From Nitrososphaerota archaeon (GTDB lineage: Archaea; Thermoproteota; Nitrososphaeria_A; Caldarchaeales; Calditenuaceae), in assembly GCA_009889515.1 (NCBI GenBank), contig WUQR01000139.1, forward strand, positions 124,001 through 188,000: a stretch of 64,000 nt of DNA, given 5' to 3'. This document shows positions 44,361-53,732 of this stretch, piece by piece. A model generated the notes under the pieces. The model did no database searches. It was not told the origin of the DNA and was given only the letters and a program-made list of their open reading frames with translations. Both the position numbers and the translations under genes were made by a program. The first letter of the stretch is position 1. Every line of letters begins with the position of its first letter.

Positions 44361-47300
44361 ATGTACCCGAAAGAAATGCTTTCCTGCACTCGTCCGAGGC
44401 ACCTCAGACACAGCATCACAATAGCTCTAACCCTATTGCTACTTGTGTCAACATTCTCTCTTACCCACGTCCCAATAGCAGAGGCCCAGGAAACACCTCT
44501 AAAGAAAGTCTCGCCTAACGACATAAACACTTCCCTAATGGCCCAGCATATAGAGTATCTAAGTAGCCTTGGAAGCCGCGTGACGGGTTATCCCGGACAC
44601 TACAAGGCCGCACAATATATCGCTGACAGGCTTAGGGAGATGGGCCTCAAAGTGATTATTCAGAATTACAGTGTTGTAGTACCGATCGACGAGGGCTCAT
44701 ACATCGAGCTTGAATCAAGAGGAGAGAGGACGAGGCTTGAAGCATATGCCGTCTGGCCAAACGGGCCCCACACCTCCATGACAAGGAAAGAGGGGGTACG
44801 TGGACACTTAATATATGTGGGGCGTGGAGAGCTGGAGGATTTTGACGGGAAAGATGTTGTCGGAAGCATTGTTCTCATGGATTATACTAGCGGCTCCAAC
44901 TGGCTAAACGCTGCGAAGCTTGGAGCACGCGCTGTAATCTTTATCGAGCCACCAGCAGTCCCACACTACCTAGACTCTCTAAAAAAGTTCATCGACGCCC
45001 CACTTAACTTTCCCCGACTCTACGTCACAAGTGAAACAGGAGAAAGACTGAAAGAAGCTGCTGAAAAAGGTGCGAGGGTAACTGTCTTCGTTAGAATGAG
45101 ATACATCGAGACCACGGCCTATAATGTGATCGGCGCGCTAAACGGCACGAATAGTGCCGATCCGACAACCATGATCTTCACCGCGCGGTTTGATAGCTGG
45201 TCAGCCGTCCCCGCACTCTCCCCGGCAGCAATGGAGGCAGTTCCCCCAGCATTCCTCCTAGAGCTTGCAAGATACTATTCAGAGAATAAGCCGTACTGGA
45301 ATGCCTGGTTCGTCTTCTTTAGCGGGCATTGGCAGGGGCTAGCCGGTCCGAGGAACTTCGTGGATAATTTCTACTTCTCCCGGGAGGTTGCGGAGGGCAG
45401 GTTCAGACCGATCCTCATGATAGGAATCGGAGAACTAGACCCCTATGGAATAGGGCTTGACCTGCTGAGAGGGAGCGCGCTTAACCTTTACGCGACGACA
45501 GGCAACGCTGGAGGAATAACTGTGAGATACTCTTGGATAAGGAGACAGATATTCACCAGCTATATTCATGATGAAGACTTTGTCTCGAATCTTCAAAAGA
45601 TGACTGGTATAAAATCCGACTCTTTTGTAAAGGAGTTCTTCACCAACACGATGTACTGGGGTTCTCAGCAGTATCCAAGCATGCTTGATACAGAGCCTGC
45701 AGAGCAGACGAGGGGCATAGCCTTCACAATACAATCCTCCCAGACATCACTGTCTTGGATAGGAACTCCTGTTAGCGACCTCTCTCTAGTGGATTTGGAG
45801 CGCCTCCGTCCCCAGCTCTACACAATAGCCCACATCATCGACTCATTCCTGAATGAGAAAAGCCTTGGAATTAGCTGGCAGAGCGTCTCACCCTCTCGCC
45901 TATTCATACAGCCCGGAGGCTTTGCAGAATATGCAGGCTTCATCGAGCTTAGGGGGAAGGTTATCACCTATAACGCATCGGTTGGATGGTATAGGCCGGT
46001 TCCCAAGCTCCTAGTCAGGGTCTATGTAGGCTTCACACCCACCGCCTCAGTTGTCTATGGACCTGGAGGTGGGACGGCGGTGGGAGGCGGCCTCAGCGCA
46101 GGCTACTGGCCACTACCATATCCCTTCAACAAGATGATGACCTTCGCCGATGAGAATGGAATGTTCACTATTAAGGGTCTTGTGCCTTATCCATTCGTCC
46201 CGGGCAGCAGATATTTCGTCGAGGCATGGGGATTCGATGATGAGACTGGGGAGATAATATACGCCCCCGACCTCGGCATCTATGGTGCTAGGTCAATTCC
46301 GCCGACAATTTCTCCCCTCTCACCCTATGACGAGGTCTCAGTAGTCGTCTTCAGGGCTGTGCCAACCTACATCTTCGACGTCATAGACCTCACCAACTTC
46401 AGGCCGGCACTAATGCCTGACCCGCACCTGGCGGGGTGGGCAGCGCCGACGACAGGCGGGCAAGCTGGGCTCGGAGGTGGGTGGTATCATACAGCCGGCG
46501 CCCAGATAGTCCCCCTCAACTTCCGAATCAGAGGCGATCTGCTCTTCTATGGAGTTTACTTTAACATGTATGAGCCTGTGGGTGTAGTCTTCACTCAGCC
46601 CGGCGAAGTCTTCATGGTTCTTGGCAGGCTTGGTGGGGCTGGAGTAGCCCTCTCCCGTGTGCCATACATAGCCCTCGTAAACTCGACTGAGAGGGAGACG
46701 GAGGGTGTAGGCTTCAAGTCTGAACACGAGCTGGTGGTTCACAACACAGCCTACAGAATTGCGCTCGATATGTACAGAATAACCAAGGGCAGGTATGATG
46801 CGCTGAGCTCCAAGAATGTTAAGACCATTAGCATCGAGCAGAAGCTGGAGCAGGTTGAGAAGTATCTACGTCTGGCCGAGGAGGCCTACTCCAATAGAAA
46901 GTACTCCCTCTTCCAGTCCTACTCAATGCTTGCGTGGGGCTGGGCATACAGGGCGTACAACGAGGTTATGGGTCTTATAAACGACTCCTCAAACACAAGC
47001 CTATTCTTTATAGGCTTAATAGTCTTGAGCAGCGTCTTCGTAGAGCGTCTGGTCATACATGCTGAAGGGAAGAAGAGGCTTCTATCGATAATATCTGTGG
47101 GCGCTGTCCTCTTCCTAATCTTCACCGAGGTTCACCCCGCATTCAGTGTTATGAGCACAGCTCTAATGGCAGTCTTCGGCCTCCTCACAATAGTGCTGTA
47201 CATGATTGTTCTCTCGGTCTTGGGTAACGAAGTTGAGCGCGTAAGGCGTAGCATATCCTACAGGATGCTTGGGTCTCACGTTCTTGAGATTGGCCGCGTG

Positions 47301-49106
47301 GGGATAATGGCTGTCGCATATAACACAGCCGTAGAAAACATGAGGAGAAGGAGGTTGAGGACTACGCTGATAATCGGCTCAATCATAGGTGTGACACTCG
47401 GACTCTCAATCTTCACCTCAGTCGCTCCCTCGGTTGATGTTGCATTCCCGTCGCTACCACAGAGTGCACCAACAGATGGGGTCTCGGTGAGGATTGGCTA
47501 TGGTATCCCAGTTGGAGGCGTCATGGGTGATGAGGGGCGTGAGGTGCTGAAGGCTTACGAGGCGCAGGGCATGGTGGTGGCACCTAGGGCATGGTACTAC
47601 CCAGTCTCAATCTACCCTGCGGTGGGCCCAATACTCCAGCTCAGCAAGGACCCGCTCTCAGGAAATTTCTACAACATCCATGCAATACTAGGCCTCACAG
47701 GACCTGACCTTGAGCGAACAGTTGCGCAGCTAGTAGGGAATGAGAATAGCTCAGTCGTACAACTAGGAGCCTGCTGCATAATTCAATCAAAGGGCCCCAG
47801 CAGCATCTTCAGTAGTGAATACGCCTACGAGATACTTGTCCCTGATACGTTGGCAGAGATGCTTGGAGTTCAGGTCGGTGACAGGCTCTATGCCATGGGC
47901 CTCCCCTTAAAAGTAGTAGGCATATACTCTGCTGCCGAAGCTGAAAAACTGTTCGAGATCAGCGGCTTCTCAATGGCGCCTATAAATCCATACTATGTAG
48001 GATCCATAGCCTTTGGCGCAACTGTGCCCGCACAGCAGATTCCGCCTCCCCTCTCGTGGGACAGGCTGATTATCGCTCCATACGGACTAGTTACCAGCCT
48101 CGGCGGATACACGGCGTCCTACAACATTTATCCCGCGGAAGGTGGGGCCGGCGAGAGTATGCGCCAGCTCGCCAGAGACTTGAGCATGGTTACAGACCTC
48201 GCGGTATACGTGGGTGAGGGCGGCTCGACATATAGGGGCTCCCGTGTCACGAGCTTTAAGACCGTTGGGTGGGAGATTGTGCCGGCGCTGATTGTCATCG
48301 GCGCACTAAATACGGTAATTAACCTCATGGGCAGTGTGGAGGAGAGGAGGCGGGAGATATCGGTCTACTCTGTGTTAGGCTTGCCGCCTCTAGGCTCCAG
48401 CTTCCTCTTCTTCGTAGAATCTGCCGTCTACGCCTCGCTAGGCGCTCTCATCGGGTATCTAAATGGATTCGTGTTGAACAGGGCCTTCATAGAATTCGGG
48501 CTCCTGCCAAGAGTCTACACTCTCAACTATGCCTCCATCTTCATAATGCTCTCCCTCGGCATCGTGATATTAGCCGCCATGCTTGCCTCAGTATACCCAT
48601 CAAGAATTGCCGCCATGCTGGTCACACCCTCCCTCGAGAGGAAGTGGAAGCCACCCACAAAGCCCAAGCAGGGGGTATGGCGCCTCCCACTCCCACTAAG
48701 CATCGACAACAGGGACGAGGCAGCGGCATTCATGGCCTTCCTATACGAGTATTATGTCGGAGCTGGTGCGCAGAAGCCCAGCTACACCGTGAGAGAGGTC
48801 ATGCCACCAGTATTAAACAATAGGGGCGAAATGAGGCTGCGGCTGGATGTCTCGCTGGCCCCCTACGAACAGGGCATAAACCAGCACGTAGAGATAGCCT
48901 CCATCTACGAGGAGTCTGCCAAGAGATACTCGTTCGAGCTAATCATGACAAAGATCAGCGGAGCAGACGCGATGTGGGCTACCCAGGCATACTTCTTTGC
49001 AGACGACCTCAGAAAGCAGGTCCTAATCTGGAGGGCAATAACCGTCGAGGAGAGGAACAGGTACTTAGAGTTCTCGAAAGGACTTATCAAGGAGCAGATA
49101 GATTAA
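44361..49106 (+). CDS. Giant membrane protein: M28 peptidase-like ectodomain fused to FtsX-type permease
   Basis: 1581 residues. Order: signal-like segment (about 19-42); an M28 aminopeptidase-like fold with inserted PA domain (about 50-440); beta-rich regions (about 520-800); three hydrophobic segments (about 870-950); then a MacB/FtsX unit, with one segment (LRTTLIIGSIIGVTLGLSIF), a periplasmic-core-like domain and three more segments in the FtsX domain (SVEERRREISVYSVLGLPP). The M28 zinc ligands look lost: the His-x-Asp site reads ARFDSW and the glutamate pair reads GHWQG. It is therefore probably a non-enzymatic binding module coupled to an ABC-type mechanotransmitter. No ATPase gene is adjacent. 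Confidence 0.8.
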   Translation: MYPKEMLSCTRPRHLRHSITIALTLLLLVSTFSLTHVPIAEAQETPLKKVSPNDINTSLMAQHIEYLSSLGSRVTGYPGHYKAAQYIADRLREMGLKVIIQNYSVVVPIDEGSYIELESRGERTRLEAYAVWPNGPHTSMTRKEGVRGHLIYVGRGELEDFDGKDVVGSIVLMDYTSGSNWLNAAKLGARAVIFIEPPAVPHYLDSLKKFIDAPLNFPRLYVTSETGERLKEAAEKGARVTVFVRMRYIETTAYNVIGALNGTNSADPTTMIFTARFDSWSAVPALSPAAMEAVPPAFLLELARYYSENKPYWNAWFVFFSGHWQGLAGPRNFVDNFYFSREVAEGRFRPILMIGIGELDPYGIGLDLLRGSALNLYATTGNAGGITVRYSWIRRQIFTSYIHDEDFVSNLQKMTGIKSDSFVKEFFTNTMYWGSQQYPSMLDTEPAEQTRGIAFTIQSSQTSLSWIGTPVSDLSLVDLERLRPQLYTIAHIIDSFLNEKSLGISWQSVSPSRLFIQPGGFAEYAGFIELRGKVITYNASVGWYRPVPKLLVRVYVGFTPTASVVYGPGGGTAVGGGLSAGYWPLPYPFNKMMTFADENGMFTIKGLVPYPFVPGSRYFVEAWGFDDETGEIIYAPDLGIYGARSIPPTISPLSPYDEVSVVVFRAVPTYIFDVIDLTNFRPALMPDPHLAGWAAPTTGGQAGLGGGWYHTAGAQIVPLNFRIRGDLLFYGVYFNMYEPVGVVFTQPGEVFMVLGRLGGAGVALSRVPYIALVNSTERETEGVGFKSEHELVVHNTAYRIALDMYRITKGRYDALSSKNVKTISIEQKLEQVEKYLRLAEEAYSNRKYSLFQSYSMLAWGWAYRAYNEVMGLINDSSNTSLFFIGLIVLSSVFVERLVIHAEGKKRLLSIISVGAVLFLIFTEVHPAFSVMSTALMAVFGLLTIVLYMIVLSVLGNEVERVRRSISYRMLGSHVLEIGRVGIMAVAYNTAVENMRRRRLRTTLIIGSIIGVTLGLSIFTSVAPSVDVAFPSLPQSAPTDGVSVRIGYGIPVGGVMGDEGREVLKAYEAQGMVVAPRAWYYPVSIYPAVGPILQLSKDPLSGNFYNIHAILGLTGPDLERTVAQLVGNENSSVVQLGACCIIQSKGPSSIFSSEYAYEILVPDTLAEMLGVQVGDRLYAMGLPLKVVGIYSAAEAEKLFEISGFSMAPINPYYVGSIAFGATVPAQQIPPPLSWDRLIIAPYGLVTSLGGYTASYNIYPAEGGAGESMRQLARDLSMVTDLAVYVGEGGSTYRGSRVTSFKTVGWEIVPALIVIGALNTVINLMGSVEERRREISVYSVLGLPPLGSSFLFFVESAVYASLGALIGYLNGFVLNRAFIEFGLLPRVYTLNYASIFIMLSLGIVILAAMLASVYPSRIAAMLVTPSLERKWKPPTKPKQGVWRLPLPLSIDNRDEAAAFMAFLYEYYVGAGAQKPSYTVREVMPPVLNNRGEMRLRLDVSLAPYEQGINQHVEIASIYEESAKRYSFELIMTKISGADAMWATQAYFFADDLRKQVLIWRAITVEERNRYLEFSKGLIKEQID

Positions 49107-49119
49107 GTGTAACGCTGCC

Positions 49120-50139
49120 ATGTCTTTCACATCCCTGCTCACACGCCCCATCAGGATAATACACAGCCCGGGAAAGGTGATTTCAGAGATCTCTGAGAGA
49201 CCAGGTACTGGAGTAGCAATGCTCATCTTCTTCCTCGTAGTGGCATCCAGCATCACCTTAGATACGTTAGTGTCCTTGCCTAGGCTCGAGATAATCAATG
49301 TTTTTGATGAGAAGATTCCGACACCCACCGTAGACATAAGGTTTGTCATTGCTCGGCAGATTGCCTACTTCTTCCTAGCCATAGGAGTGTTGTTCGGAGT
49401 ACTGTGGGTCTTCTCGTTCTTCCTCAAAAAGAAGAATGGAAACCTGTTATCTATCCTTTCATCCATACTGAACGGATTCCTGATACTCTTCATCTTCATT
49501 GCCGTCGGCTCACTAATTAGCCTCCTTCTCCCACCATCCACCATCATCGTTTATGGATATGAGGCAAATGGTGTTGGTTTTCGCGACCTTTCAGTCACTG
49601 GGATCTATGAGGGTGTCGAAGTCCCGGCGGGTGTTAGAGAGGACATATTGTCCAACGGCTCAGCTATTTATGCTCCTCTGGCGCGTGCCTTGACTCTGAA
49701 GGCGGAGGTCTTAGACTCCTCGGGGTTAAGGGTAAACCTCACAGGTTTGAGCGATGCTGAAAAAAGGAGGGCCTTGGAGGGAGGTCGTCAAAGGATAACC
49801 ATTGAAGGGCTGATGCTCAGTGAGGCAGTAGTTAATGGTGTGGACAGAATAGCTGTCCCCTTCAACATTTCTCAAGTTACTCCGCTATATTTGAACTGGA
49901 GTTCCGCCGAGGTTGAGACGTACAGATATATTGATGCGACGATAATGGGGCTGTCAGAGATGTCAAGCGATGAGCTCGCCTTGACCTATATTAGAAGGGC
50001 GCTCTCCCCGGTTGCTTGGCTCTGGATTTCGGGCCTAGGGGCATATGCACTTAACGTGGTGTATGGGTTGGGGAGGTTTAGGGCTGGCGCTGCGTGGGCC
50101 GCAGCCTTCTCGCTAATGACATTGATGGGTCTTGTCTAA
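49120..50139 (+). CDS. Polytopic membrane protein with extracytoplasmic domain (Yip1-like)
   Basis: 339 residues, 13 bases after the giant FtsX fusion. Three hydrophobic segments lie in the N-terminal half (VAMLIFFLVVASSITLDTLV; IAYFFLAIGVLFGVLWVFSF; ILNGFLILFIFIAVGSLISL), then a soluble loop of about 130 residues with N-x-S/T sites, then two C-terminal segments. The N-terminal opening (LLTRPIRIIHSPGKVISEIS) resembles Yip1-domain proteins. Spacing says it works with the upstream protein. Function unknown. Confidence 0.6.
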   Translation: MSFTSLLTRPIRIIHSPGKVISEISERPGTGVAMLIFFLVVASSITLDTLVSLPRLEIINVFDEKIPTPTVDIRFVIARQIAYFFLAIGVLFGVLWVFSFFLKKKNGNLLSILSSILNGFLILFIFIAVGSLISLLLPPSTIIVYGYEANGVGFRDLSVTGIYEGVEVPAGVREDILSNGSAIYAPLARALTLKAEVLDSSGLRVNLTGLSDAEKRRALEGGRQRITIEGLMLSEAVVNGVDRIAVPFNISQVTPLYLNWSSAEVETYRYIDATIMGLSEMSSDELALTYIRRALSPVAWLWISGLGAYALNVVYGLGRFRAGAAWAAAFSLMTLMGLV

Positions 50140-51022
50140 CACATCGGATATAGCTAATCAGACACTCATCGGTTGGCGTGGCATAGAGTTTCTCGCACCC
50201 GAGACATTAAGGCTAGCCGCGGAGAGGATAGGGCCGCACAGCTCCTACTCAGTATTCTCTGACAAAGGTTATCCTAGAGTGGAGATTATAGTTGACAGGT
50301 CTAAGAACTACGATGCCGTAGGGCTCGCCCAGTGGGTTGAGAGGCTCATCAAGAGTAGACAGGCTGAGAAGTGGGCAGATGTCGAAAAATACGAGGGCGA
50401 GATATTTGGGCACAGGGCTCTGAAGATTACTGGCCGCGTAGAGGCAGGTCGTTTTATAGCCTATGCGTGGGCGTGCTCGGGGGTGTTGAAATTTTTCAAG
50501 CTGAACCTCCAGCAGGAAAGTGAAGACTGGGCAGCCATCTTCAGAAGTCTTAAATGCCACCGGAGCGATGGCATGATGCTCCTAAGTCTCTACGAGTTCC
50601 AAATACTCGCCCCCTCCACGCTCTGGATAAGCGCCATAAACTCTACTACAGGCATGTTCTCCCTGGTCCTAGAAGATGAGAATAATGTGGTGGTGATAGA
50701 AAGGGCGGGGCCCGCAGCCGCCCTCGGACTCGAGATGACACAGTGGCTCAAGAAATTCCACTCAAAGCTACTCGAAAAATATAAGGTGTTTATAGGCCGT
50801 GAGCCGCTCGCCGCCCGTGAAGAGGGTGCTCACCAAGCCGTAGCCTACCCCATCCATCCAAAGGGTCTTGCGGTTAGGAGGAAAACAATAGGGCTGTCTC
50901 AGGTTTGGCTTTGCGATGTGAATGATAGGTTCTGGGCCCTCTCAGAAATCAGCTACGCAAGGAAGACAAGCCTCACACAACTGCCCAAAATTAGGATAGA
51001 CTGCCACGCCAAGACGCTTTAA
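50132..51022 (+). CDS. Hypothetical protein with internal duplication
   Basis: 296 residues, TTG start overlapping the previous stop by eight bases, so the third gene of the FtsX-fusion unit. It has two similar halves: about 12-150 opens GWRGIEFLAPETLRLAA and about 155-290 opens LYEFQILAPSTLWISAI, each followed by a beta-rich stretch and a tryptophan-containing helix (AQWVERL; TQWLKKF). No membrane segment or signal. Probably a soluble cytoplasmic partner of the two membrane proteins; family not recognised. Confidence 0.6.
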   Translation: MSNTSDIANQTLIGWRGIEFLAPETLRLAAERIGPHSSYSVFSDKGYPRVEIIVDRSKNYDAVGLAQWVERLIKSRQAEKWADVEKYEGEIFGHRALKITGRVEAGRFIAYAWACSGVLKFFKLNLQQESEDWAAIFRSLKCHRSDGMMLLSLYEFQILAPSTLWISAINSTTGMFSLVLEDENNVVVIERAGPAAALGLEMTQWLKKFHSKLLEKYKVFIGREPLAAREEGAHQAVAYPIHPKGLAVRRKTIGLSQVWLCDVNDRFWALSEISYARKTSLTQLPKIRIDCHAKTL

Positions 51023-51304: not shown

Positions 51305-52066
51305 TCAGGTGAAGTATCTCGACCTAACCTTCGAGCTGATAAAATCTATCGCGAGTACAAATGCTAGCAGTATCAGTATGGTTGTTAGGAGGCCGCTGTA
51401 TCTCAGCGACTGGACTAGGGCTAGTATCAGGTATCCTACCCCTCCTGCACCTACTAGGCCGACGATAGTGGAGGCTCTGACATTGTATTCGAAGATGAAG
51501 AGTAGCTGGCTAAGGATGTAGTTCGCTGACTCCGGGAGGATTGCGAATCTTAGCTGCTGGAGTCTCGAGGCTCCAACCCCCCTAACCGCCTCCAAGACTT
51601 CACTACTCACAGAGTCGAAGGCTTCGTAGAAGAGTTTTCCAAGATAGCCCGTAGTGTAGAATGTTATGGCTAGCACTCCAGCGAAAGGGCCGAAGCCAGC
51701 TATGACTACGAATATCAAGGCCCATAGTATCGCTGGTATAGTCCTTATCAGGGCGAGTATTGTCCGGAAAAGAGCCATGATAGGCGGGGGAAATAGAAGC
51801 CTCGTACTGAATATTGCTAGGGCCAGGGCAAGCGCGCCACCCATTAGTGTTCCAGCGAAAGCCATGACGACTGTCTCGTAAACTGCGGAGAGGACTTGTG
51901 GGATAATCGTGAGGTCTGGTGGAAGCATTCCAGCTAAGAATGGCCCAATATTCTGTATCCTCGCGACGCGGTCTGGGTCGAAAAATCCTGTCTGCCACAG
52001 CGAGAAAAAGAATAGCACTAGTATGATTATTCGCCCGCTATATTTGATTTTCAAGAAGAGCCTCAC
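51305..52066 (-). CDS. phnE: Phosphonate/phosphite-type ABC permease
   Basis: 253 residues, about six membrane segments. The PhnE-type EAA loop is clear (EAVRGVGASRLQQLRFAILP) and the N terminus resembles PhnE (GTLMGGALALALAIFSTRLL). Its start overlaps the phnC stop by four bases. Together with PhnC and PhnD it forms an importer for phosphonates, phosphite or a related anion. No C-P lyase or phosphite dehydrogenase gene is in the window. Confidence 0.88.
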   Translation of the reverse strand: MRLFLKIKYSGRIIILVLFFFSLWQTGFFDPDRVARIQNIGPFLAGMLPPDLTIIPQVLSAVYETVVMAFAGTLMGGALALALAIFSTRLLFPPPIMALFRTILALIRTIPAILWALIFVVIAGFGPFAGVLAITFYTTGYLGKLFYEAFDSVSSEVLEAVRGVGASRLQQLRFAILPESANYILSQLLFIFEYNVRASTIVGLVGAGGVGYLILALVQSLRYSGLLTTILILLAFVLAIDFISSKVRSRYFT

Positions 52067-52797
52067 CTCATGGCTGCGATTAAGTCTGACTCGGAGACGC
52101 TTCGCCCATCCTTACAGAGCTTAAATTGACCATCCCTCAGGACCAATACTTTGTCCGCATACCTTGAGGCGAGGTGGATGTCGTGGCTTGTTATGACTGT
52201 GGCTATTCCCCTCTTGTCAGCGAGTTCGCGGAAAACGTCTAGCACCTCTAGGGCAGTCAGTGGGTCAAGCTGGCTCACAAACTCGTCAGCCAGTATGACC
52301 TGGGGCTTCTGCATCAAAGCTCTCGCAATAGCTACTCGCTGCCTCTGACCCCCGCTCAGCTGGGAGACTTTCTGGTACTTAAACTGGGCGAGCCCCATCA
52401 TTTCCAATATCTCCTCAGCCCTATCTCTCTCTTCCTTGGGGAATTGCCCTAAGATGGAGTGGAGTAGAGGAACCCTGGCGAGAGCACCTACTAAGACGTT
52501 GTCAAGCACGGAGATGTTGGAGACTATGCCGAATCCCTGGGGAATATATCCTATGACGCTATATGCTCTCTTGGCTGTATCGATTGAAGTTGTGGGCCGC
52601 CCCATAAAGAGTACTTCACCGCGTGATGGTTTGAGTATTCCTTTCAGTATCTTTAGGAGTGTTGACTTACCTGCACCGCTTCTACCAAACACCATGTATA
52701 TTTTACCAGCCTCGATGGATAGCGAAATATCCTTGAGTGTATAGTTTCTAGAATCGTACGTGAACCATACATTCTTCGCTTCTAAGATGCTACTCAA
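52063..52797 (-). CDS. phnC: Phosphonate/phosphite-type ABC ATPase
   Basis: 244 residues. Walker A GRSGAGKST, signature LSGGQRQRVAIARALM, Walker B VILADEFVSQLD, switch histidine in ITSHDIHLA. The pattern of Q-loop and spacing matches PhnC. It overlaps both neighbours by four bases, so PhnD, PhnC and PhnE are translationally coupled. Confidence 0.9.
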   Translation of the reverse strand: MSSILEAKNVWFTYDSRNYTLKDISLSIEAGKIYMVFGRSGAGKSTLLKILKGILKPSRGEVLFMGRPTTSIDTAKRAYSVIGYIPQGFGIVSNISVLDNVLVGALARVPLLHSILGQFPKEERDRAEEILEMMGLAQFKYQKVSQLSGGQRQRVAIARALMQKPQVILADEFVSQLDPLTALEVLDVFRELADKRGIATVITSHDIHLASRYADKVLVLRDGQFKLCKDGRSVSESDLIAAMR

Positions 52798-53732
52798 GTA
52801 TACTGTAACCCCGTCTCCTCAATGTATTTCTCAAGAGTGCCGAGGTGGTCGCTGGTGGTCTTAGGCTCAAATCCTACAAACAGGGCCGAGACTAGCCGTT
52901 TCATCAAATCCCTGTACTCGGGCTTTGAAAGCTCTAGGAACGCCTCCTTTATCCTCTGTTTGAGGCTGTCGGGCAGGTCCGATGAGACTACTACACCATG
53001 TGAAGGCAGGGGGCCTTGAGTCTCTAGAACTCTTGACGAGCCCATGGCCTTGGTGTAGAGCTCGTATGACACGTCGCCCGCCATTACTGTTACGTCAACC
53101 TGCCCCGCGCGAAGTGCCTCCCAACACTGGCCATACCCTCCACCGAAGATGACTTCGCCGAAGAATTCGCGCGGGTTTACAGGCTCTCCGCTTCCACGCT
53201 TGAGAAGGCCAAGCTCAACCAGCCGCGCCATAGGGGCTAGGAAGCCTGAAGAGGATATGGGGCTGGGGAAGCAGGCGCGCTTCCCTTTTAGCTCCTCGAT
53301 CGACTTGTATGGGCTATCCTTTAGAACAATCCAGTACGAGTAATAGTAGGTCGCGTTGACTTTTTGATCCCCCACCGCGACAGTCCTAACCTCTGCGAGT
53401 AGGAGCTCGGCGCCCGCATTCTTGACTGCTAGGTATGCGGGCCAGGACCCCATAAGGGCGACGTGGACATTTTTGAACCTAAGCCCCTCTATGACGCCTG
53501 CATAGTCGGTCGGTATATACACTTCTACCCGGAGTCCCAGCCTCTTCTCGAGAAACTCCTTAAGATTCTTGGACGACTCGGCTATGTCTAGGGGGTTTTG
53601 TGTCGGCTGTATAGCCAGTATTATCTTTGTAATTCCAGGTCTCGGTGTGAGGGTTTGAAGGCTTAGAAGAGCAGCCGCGACGAATATTACAGCTGCTGCG
53701 ATAGTTAGAGCAATTACCTTCTTTTTCTCCAT
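52794..53732 (-). CDS. phnD: Phosphonate/phosphite-type substrate-binding protein
   Basis: 312 residues. An N-terminal hydrophobic segment (VIALTIAAAVIFVAAALLSL) anchors or exports it. The binding fold follows PhnD: LAIQPTQNPLDIAESSKNL, FKNVHVALMGSWPAYL, then FPSPISSSGFLAP and the late SHGVVVSSDLPD. First gene of the operon, ATG at 53732. The ligand cannot be decided between phosphonate, phosphite and similar compounds. Confidence 0.87.
   Translation of the reverse strand: MEKKKVIALTIAAAVIFVAAALLSLQTLTPRPGITKIILAIQPTQNPLDIAESSKNLKEFLEKRLGLRVEVYIPTDYAGVIEGLRFKNVHVALMGSWPAYLAVKNAGAELLLAEVRTVAVGDQKVNATYYYSYWIVLKDSPYKSIEELKGKRACFPSPISSSGFLAPMARLVELGLLKRGSGEPVNPREFFGEVIFGGGYGQCWEALRAGQVDVTVMAGDVSYELYTKAMGSSRVLETQGPLPSHGVVVSSDLPDSLKQRIKEAFLELSKPEYRDLMKRLVSALFVGFEPKTTSDHLGTLEKYIEETGLQYT

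Follow-up and report, generated by a model that had tools for sequence, protein, structure and literature searches.

What does a protein do that joins the fold of an aminopeptidase, apparently stripped of its zinc site, to a membrane unit of the kind that ABC ATPases drive? This question is raised by a gene at positions 44361-49106 (forward strand) of the window, the whole 64,000-nucleotide stretch of DNA that was analysed, which comes from a Calditenuaceae archaeon, a heat-loving organism. The gene has an ATG start and zero internal stops, and its translation gives a protein of 1581 aa, which we annotated with Pfam and with profile searches of the PDB. From the N- to the C-terminus this large protein consists of a pseudo-M28/PA ectodomain, a beta-rich and helical stalk, three extra transmembrane (TM) helices, a single MacB/FtsX unit and a cytosolic C-terminal domain. 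It is followed in an apparent operon by a gene for a 339-aa membrane protein with at least 3 hydrophobic helices (49120-50139, forward strand) and a third gene encoding 296 aa (50132-51022, forward strand), neither of which matched a Pfam family above cut-off. Both genes lie behind the large gene in all 6 genomes of the genus (the window, L086, and L031-L035), and among the loci examined this gene pair was seen behind a pseudo-M28 gene only in this genus.

Homologues of the window protein in Archaeon HR02 (L031) and in a Candidatus Calditenuaceae MAG (L033) are 92% and 82% identical to it, and each of the six genomes of the genus encodes just one copy of the long protein. Some match at E <=0.001 was present in 23 of 61 close and less close genomes, several of these being to the FtsX part alone. 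We then surveyed 397 Thermoproteota genomes (>=80% complete) with a profile of 28 homologous N-terminal parts (profile A1), which matched 54 genomes at E <=1e-25, or 45 after dropping those with short frames of 148-471 aa (G058, G074, G134, G153, G169, G198, G219, G330 and G349). Several of the 61 genomes carry multiple full-length copies: six in G053, five in G057, three in G049, and five in G007 together with one 849-aa frame. The survey of 397 genomes scored no more than three candidates in each, and its copy numbers are therefore minima. An earlier note on this DNA had presented the arrangement as new, and no description of a pseudo-M28-FtsX fusion was found in the open-licence literature. 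Judged by sequence, it is a phylum-wide, multi-paralogue family of Thermoproteota, not a single oddity.

Profile searches and modelling agree that an M28 fold is present in the window protein, though likeness of fold alone says nothing on function. The N-terminus begins with a hydrophobic stretch at residues 19-37 (44415-44471; a helix at 14-35 in the model), which may be a signal sequence or a membrane anchor. The pseudo-M28 domain follows at residues 46-500 (44496-45860), including a PA insert at residues of about 146-245 (44796-45095). Pfam did not report M28 for the single window sequence and matched the PA domain below threshold (residues 157-230, 19.8 bits vs a cut-off of 23.9). Searched against the PDB, profile A1 matched the M28 aminopeptidase 2ek8 at E 4.6e-37, in a match that covers the M28 core as well as the PA insert, and further BSAP (2e-25) and, more weakly, transferrin receptor 1 (TfR1; 2e-14), nicalin (1e-10) and nicastrin (7e-5), the last three being M28-like non-enzymes that act as receptors or scaffolds. 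An AlphaFold2 model of residues 1-899, built from 11 sequences (mean pLDDT 69.6, pTM 0.74), aligned with M28 aminopeptidases at Z 17.5-18.9 (VIA-align), its residues 48-499 superposing on BSAP at Z 18.9 (rmsd 6.3 over 371 residues) and the model on a Streptomyces aminopeptidase at Z 17.9 (rmsd 3.0 over 241).

To locate the zinc ligands we aligned 31 non-redundant family members from the loci collected (phmmer E <1e-30, length >1100 aa, duplicates by C-terminus removed); the numbering of the M28 site follows the Aeromonas enzyme. The motifs ARFDSW (residues 275-280) and GHWQG (residues 322-326) fall on the columns of the M28 HxD motif and Glu pair. At the first of these (TARFDSW, 45180-45200), the His is replaced by Arg276 and is retained in 8 of the 31 members, while Asp278 is invariant (31/31). 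The column of the bridging Asp, Glu292 in the window protein, holds Glu in 22 and Asp in 7 members. At the Glu pair (FFSGHWQGL, 45315-45341), the first, catalytic Glu has become His323, with His in 26 members, Thr in 3 and Arg and Tyr in 1 each, and the second, a zinc ligand, has become Trp324; neither column contains Glu in any of the 31. The third Asp, present in 19 members, is Gly357 here. The last zinc His, kept in 2 members, corresponds to Thr444 (MLDTEPAE, 45681-45704), in a column aligned less surely, since the adjacent Glu445, a Glu or Asp in 26 of 31, lies beside and not on the zinc His of 2ek8 in the hmmsearch alignment. In sum, the window protein and its five relatives in the genus keep none of 6 M28 catalytic or metal positions, the window protein none of 5 zinc ligands, the best members 3 of 6, and no member the full set. 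Outside the family, 2ek8 and the protein L042:14865-16142 (GGHFDSW, TDN, GEEQG, NLD) retain their ligands in the same columns.

The idea that the His in place of the first Glu is by itself enough to show inactivity had to be discarded. PDB entry 2anp is, by its title, a functional Glu151-to-His mutant of the Aeromonas enzyme, and two M28-like archaeal proteins of ~600 aa (L075:6418-8256 and L076:6894-8672), which keep several zinc ligands (GGH, TDN and NID), carry DGHE where the Glu pair would be and have Asn instead of the last His; they are possibly a natural counterpart of that mutant. Inactivity is argued more strongly by the fact that the window protein lacks the second Glu together with the other ligands; its zinc site appears to be lost. 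Because Asp278 occurs in 31 and His323 in 26 of 31 members, the pocket looks conserved, which argues against plain decay of the domain. The earlier note had claimed from the letters an M28-like fold with its PA insert and an apparent replacement of the zinc ligands at both motifs, and had proposed superposition on M28 structures and a ligand survey of homologues as checks; the model and the family alignment bear out both claims.

Between the ectodomain and the membrane, the model predicts a beta-rich region (residues 510-795, 45888-46745) and a helical stalk (796-880), which is followed by about three extra hydrophobic helices (881-968 by hydropathy; stalk and helices together at 46746-47264). 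The FtsX unit then comprises TM1 (residues 998-1025, 47352-47435), an extracytoplasmic domain of MacB type matching the periplasmic domains of MacB, LolC and LolE (1030-1300, 47448-48260) and TM2-TM4 (1302-1417, 48264-48611). Pfam recognised FtsX (PF02687) at residues 1310-1417 (E 2e-9, 38 bits vs a cut-off of 25.5), and a profile of 26 sequences of the membrane part (profile A2) found MacB 5lil as its best PDB match (E 3.7e-23), with LolF, YtrF, LolC and LolE also matched; the single MacB/FtsX unit that had been proposed for the C-terminal part is therefore confirmed. The model of this part is weak (pLDDT 65.8, pTM 0.49; Z 14.3 to MacB); within it, the range 266-710 aligns with MacB, LolC and LolE and, together with hydropathy, gives the order TM1, extracytoplasmic domain, three TM helices. 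If the first hydrophobic stretch is a cleaved signal, the N-terminus would lie outside and the C-terminus inside. The last 160 residues (1420-1581, 48618-49103) form a conserved, presumably cytosolic domain with PSLERKW and EERxKY motifs and a predicted beta-alpha fold, according to the A2 alignment and the weak model; a KA1- or PRELI-like identity for it was dropped, the scores (Z 8-9) being too weak for use.

Bacterial envelopes contain type VII ABC machines of this kind as homodimers or as two paired halves, served by dedicated ATPases. No ATPase gene adjoins the large gene. The ABC ATPase at 52063-52797, about 35% identical to the candidate described below, was rejected as partner; it is grouped on the other strand with a permease and a binding-protein-like gene. 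These form a three-gene ABC uptake operon (51305-53732, reverse strand) of permease, ATPase and a binding protein that is extracytoplasmic and, by eye, of the phosphonate type. A candidate motor emerged instead from a bacterial contig, L040, assigned by its depositors to a Desulfomicrobium bin (G+C 0.69), in which three consecutive genes share a strand: the first encodes a short, 228-aa FtsX protein that has no ectodomain, the second an ATPase of the LolD/MacB type and the third a pseudo-M28-FtsX protein truncated by the contig edge. Among the stretches of the host genome examined, the ATPase C139:1017044-1017817 is closest to that of L040 (64% identical); among solved structures it is most closely related to MJ0796 and to ATPases of the LolD/MacB type. 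The next match in the host genome, at the MacB-like locus of a 416-aa FtsX protein, is 50% identical to it; this ATPase and those beside the 379/406-aa FtsX proteins were set aside as belonging to their own loci. The host genome also encodes a short half of 198 aa (C139:1034094-1034687, reverse strand), whose gene neighbours a PqqD-like gene and lies 1.9 kb away from that of a 1072-aa paralogue in which the FtsX part is present and M28 is absent. The other three of its six FtsX matches sit with ATPases of their own. On sequence grounds, C139:1017044-1017817 is probably the partner ATPase of the large protein, in line with the earlier note, which had placed the ATPase elsewhere and proposed a search for an orphan LolD/MacB-type gene.

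The surveyed genomes show that these components travel together. The ATPase (E <=1e-85) was present in 57 of the 397 genomes, and the short half (E <=1e-19) in 57, or 52 after removal of five genomes whose frames of 400-445 aa were taken as ordinary permeases. The ATPase occurred in 41 of the 45 genomes with the large protein vs 16 of the remaining 352; for the short half the figures were 38 of 45 vs 14 of 352, and all 52 genomes with the short half also had the ATPase (Fisher p <1e-33 for co-occurrence, a value that overstates the evidence because the genomes share ancestry). At the thresholds used, neither component was found in G007, G193, G234 and G329, nor the short half in G088, G271 and G309, some of these genomes being only 80-85% complete. 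Short half and ATPase lie within 260 bp of each other in 34 of 52 genomes, and in 32 of these 34 they share a strand with the short half first, two of the 32 pairs overlapping by 5-8 bases. Most genomes outside the genus that have these genes encode two such ATPases, which stand in tandem behind the short half in G082, G171 and G319. Copy numbers differ: each genome has one short-half match vs 6, 5 and 3 full-length large proteins in G053, G057 and G049. The presence of the ATPase in 16 genomes without a counted full-length pseudo-M28 protein suggests that the motor also serves other clients, such as the 1072-aa type.

Several further observations concern these genes. The 1072-aa paralogue (L068:7027-10245) has a different N-terminus and a longer C-terminus than the window protein, and proteins resembling it, 959-1794 aa long, occur in other genomes and may likewise be clients of the same motor. 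At L068:12092-13141 (host contig C139, reverse strand) the short half lies directly behind the PqqD-like gene (PF05402, E 3e-11), and a PqqD-like gene is also found near the pseudo-M28 locus in L188 and in L053. In the complete single-contig genomes of L176 and L177, the motor, consisting of a short half and two tandem ATPases, is about 7.5 kb from the pseudo-M28 gene, in surroundings that include OPT, DUF6785, two GH57 genes and a gene resembling the YidC periplasmic domain.

Outside the window's genus, the most regular neighbours of the large gene are transporters. Counting loci with full flanks, and leaving out L040 (contig end), short-flank loci, duplicates and the window's genus, an OPT/DUF6785-superfamily gene directly adjoins the large gene in 24 of 24 loci, and two such genes lie within three genes of it in 21 of 24. 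In Pfam these neighbours are labelled OPT (PF03169) or DUF6785 with DUF6784; the OPT-type gene L044:5107-7005 had no Pfam match at E <=0.01, and a phmmer search of OPT against the PDB gave no match at E <=1. An attempt to treat OPT and DUF6785 as separate profiles failed, as each reached 78 genes on iteration and labelled the same neighbours interchangeably; because the iterated profiles merged, we counted the two as one superfamily. DUF6785 was detected in 48 of the 397 genomes, namely 43 of the 45 with the large protein vs 5 of the remaining 352; 14 control genomes had none. No paper on DUF6785/DUF6784 was found in the open-licence literature. Glycosyltransferase, GH57 and PMT genes also occur near some loci, sporadically and with few loci annotated, and would be compatible with a role in glycan rather than peptide handling.

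Evolutionary distances of the linked genes match closely. The distance matrix of the large protein correlates with that of OPT at r 0.91 (n=24 cassettes, the host's unlinked pair included) and with that of DUF6785 at r 0.96 (n=21), against within-genome permutation means of 0.31 and 0.36 with 0 of 5000 permutations reaching the observed r. Since r is raised by near-identical cassettes and linked genes have a common history, these values support co-inheritance and not contact. In the six genomes of the window's genus, no OPT neighbour of the large gene was found, and the only OPT and DUF6785 pair found in the host genome lies about 850 kb from it. This pair correlates with the window protein at r 0.82 (OPT) and 0.77 (DUF6785), values that fall to 0.09 and 0.14 without the four nearest relatives; the four nearest relatives of the host large protein (L054, L057, L041 and L044) are also the four nearest of the host OPT protein. 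The two genes at 49120-51022 may occupy the position that the OPT pair holds in relatives.

Taking together the observed fold, ligand loss, gene linkage, co-occurrence and matching distance trees, the architecture is well supported, and from it we infer physical pairing of the halves, motor sharing, a peptide ligand and a direction of transport. The reading that we favour, at somewhat less than an even chance, gives the window protein the role of receptor half in a heterodimeric type VII ABC machine that has a shared, LolD-type motor; it would bind a peptide-like ligand and work with the OPT/DUF6785 pair. The large half would be the ligand receptor of a heterodimeric machine of the MacB/LolCDE/FtsEX type, its outer part being a former M28/PA aminopeptidase that has lost the zinc site and kept the fold and a conserved pocket, so that a peptide-like ligand would be bound and left uncut. 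In the membrane it would pair with the short FtsX half that has no ectodomain, both halves being driven by the LolD-type ATPase encoded elsewhere. In genomes rich in large halves, a single motor would serve several of them. According to PMC5985334, MacB-type proteins carry no substrate through their own membrane domain and instead convert ATP hydrolysis into movement outside. By mechanotransmission of this kind, ATP binding and hydrolysis would move the stalk and ectodomain of the large half, which in turn would hand over the ligand or gate the OPT and DUF6785 transporters. By analogy with such machines, the pseudo-M28 domain would hold the ligand that suits its fold, a peptide N-terminus, which ATP-driven closure would pass to the OPT pair. 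If the pairing is right, the window's genus encodes both the OPT pair and the motor away from the large gene.

Among the alternatives, a release or export machine of the LolCDE, MacAB or YbbAP-TesA kind fares best and is still unlikely. ATP would here power the removal of a molecule that is lipid-anchored or embedded in the membrane, or of a glycoprotein, from the membrane's outer face, with the dead M28 domain as adaptor and OPT/DUF6785 handling the same molecule. The closest characterised FtsX relatives work in this way, YbbAP-TesA combines a type VII ABC with a hydrolase to which it is proposed to present molecules (PMC12646458), and glycosyltransferase, PMT-type and GH57 genes are close to some loci. 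Against this, the neighbour that recurs in 24 of 24 loci is an OPT-superfamily transporter, whereas the glycan genes are scattered over the few annotated loci.

We consider it improbable that the ectodomain is purely a sensor, which would detect a peptide and, much as BceAB does, pass the signal through the FtsX unit to the ATPase and the C-terminal cytosolic domain. BceAB-type modules sense antimicrobial peptides (PMC5985334), the C-terminal domain of the large protein is conserved and the membrane-part model does match BceAB, weakly (Z 10.4); however, among the neighbours annotated, those that recur are transporter genes and not a common regulator. A dead peptidase sensing a ligand or peptide on an ABC mechanotransmitter was what the earlier note had suggested. 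Its architectural part stands, while the partners, an OPT-superfamily pair and a short half, speak for a protein that acts on a peptide-like ligand, or transports it, more than for one that only senses.

Similarly doubtful is an ordinary homodimer, in which two large halves would pair and borrow any LolD-like ATPase, the short half serving only the 1072-aa paralogue. MacB, a homodimer, offers a precedent, and the host short half is indeed about 2 kb from the 1072-aa paralogue and not near the window gene; on the other side stand the L040 gene order of short half, ATPase and pseudo-M28 protein and the co-occurrence of short half and ATPase with the large-protein family. Least probable is that the domain is still an enzyme of changed reaction, using Asp278, Glu/Asp292, His323 and Glu/Asp445 as a rebuilt metal or acid-base site, for although these positions are conserved in 31, 29, 26 and 26 of 31 members and a His at the first Glu can function (the 2anp title, the two DGHE proteins), five of five zinc-ligand positions of the window protein differ from M28 and the second Glu is absent from all 31.

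The receptor reading lends itself to a bolder and quite tentative extension, namely that Thermoproteota have a modular type VII ABC system built around a shared motor. In it, one short FtsX half and one or two LolD-type ATPases would energise interchangeable pseudo-peptidase receptor halves, each with its own OPT/DUF6785 pair, and the mechanotransmitter would drive or gate an OPT-type peptide channel. Going by the open-licence literature, what is new is the type VII ABC half with a dead-peptidase receptor; a shared motor and OPT coupling, if proven, would make the finding larger. If true, the reading would add a new route by which ATP is coupled to extracellular peptide handling, through a phylum-wide archaeal type VII ABC whose receptor is a dead peptidase, whose short half is separate and to which OPT-superfamily transporters are linked. 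It would also supply the first functional context for DUF6785/DUF6784 and a prokaryotic counterpart of the eukaryotic pseudo-M28 receptors.

Comparison with known systems shows where the proposed machine is conventional and where it departs. With the M28 aminopeptidases (2ek8, BSAP and the Aeromonas enzyme), the window protein shares the fold with its PA insert and the Asp of HxD, but its zinc ligands and Glu pair are replaced and it is fused to a membrane part. Transferrin receptor 1, nicalin and nicastrin likewise have an M28-like fold, matched by the same profile as the window family, yet they are eukaryotic and lack a fused ATP-driven membrane partner. ECF transporters of group II resemble the system by logic only, as one motor serves several substrate-binding membrane subunits; the sharing is putative here, and we claim no family relationship. 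The type VII ABC machines MacB, LolCDE and YbbAP have an FtsX unit with the same order of TM1, extracytoplasmic domain and TM2-4, and our ATPase candidate is likewise of the LolD/MJ0796 type. Unlike in these, the large half has in addition a pseudo-M28/PA ectodomain and three further TM helices, its proposed partner is a short half without ectodomain, the ATPase is unlinked in the host genome, and relatives of the window protein have OPT/DUF6785 neighbours. In YbbAP-TesA, too, a type VII ABC is coupled to a hydrolase-like ectoprotein, but there the hydrolase is separate and active, while in the window protein it is fused and apparently inactive.
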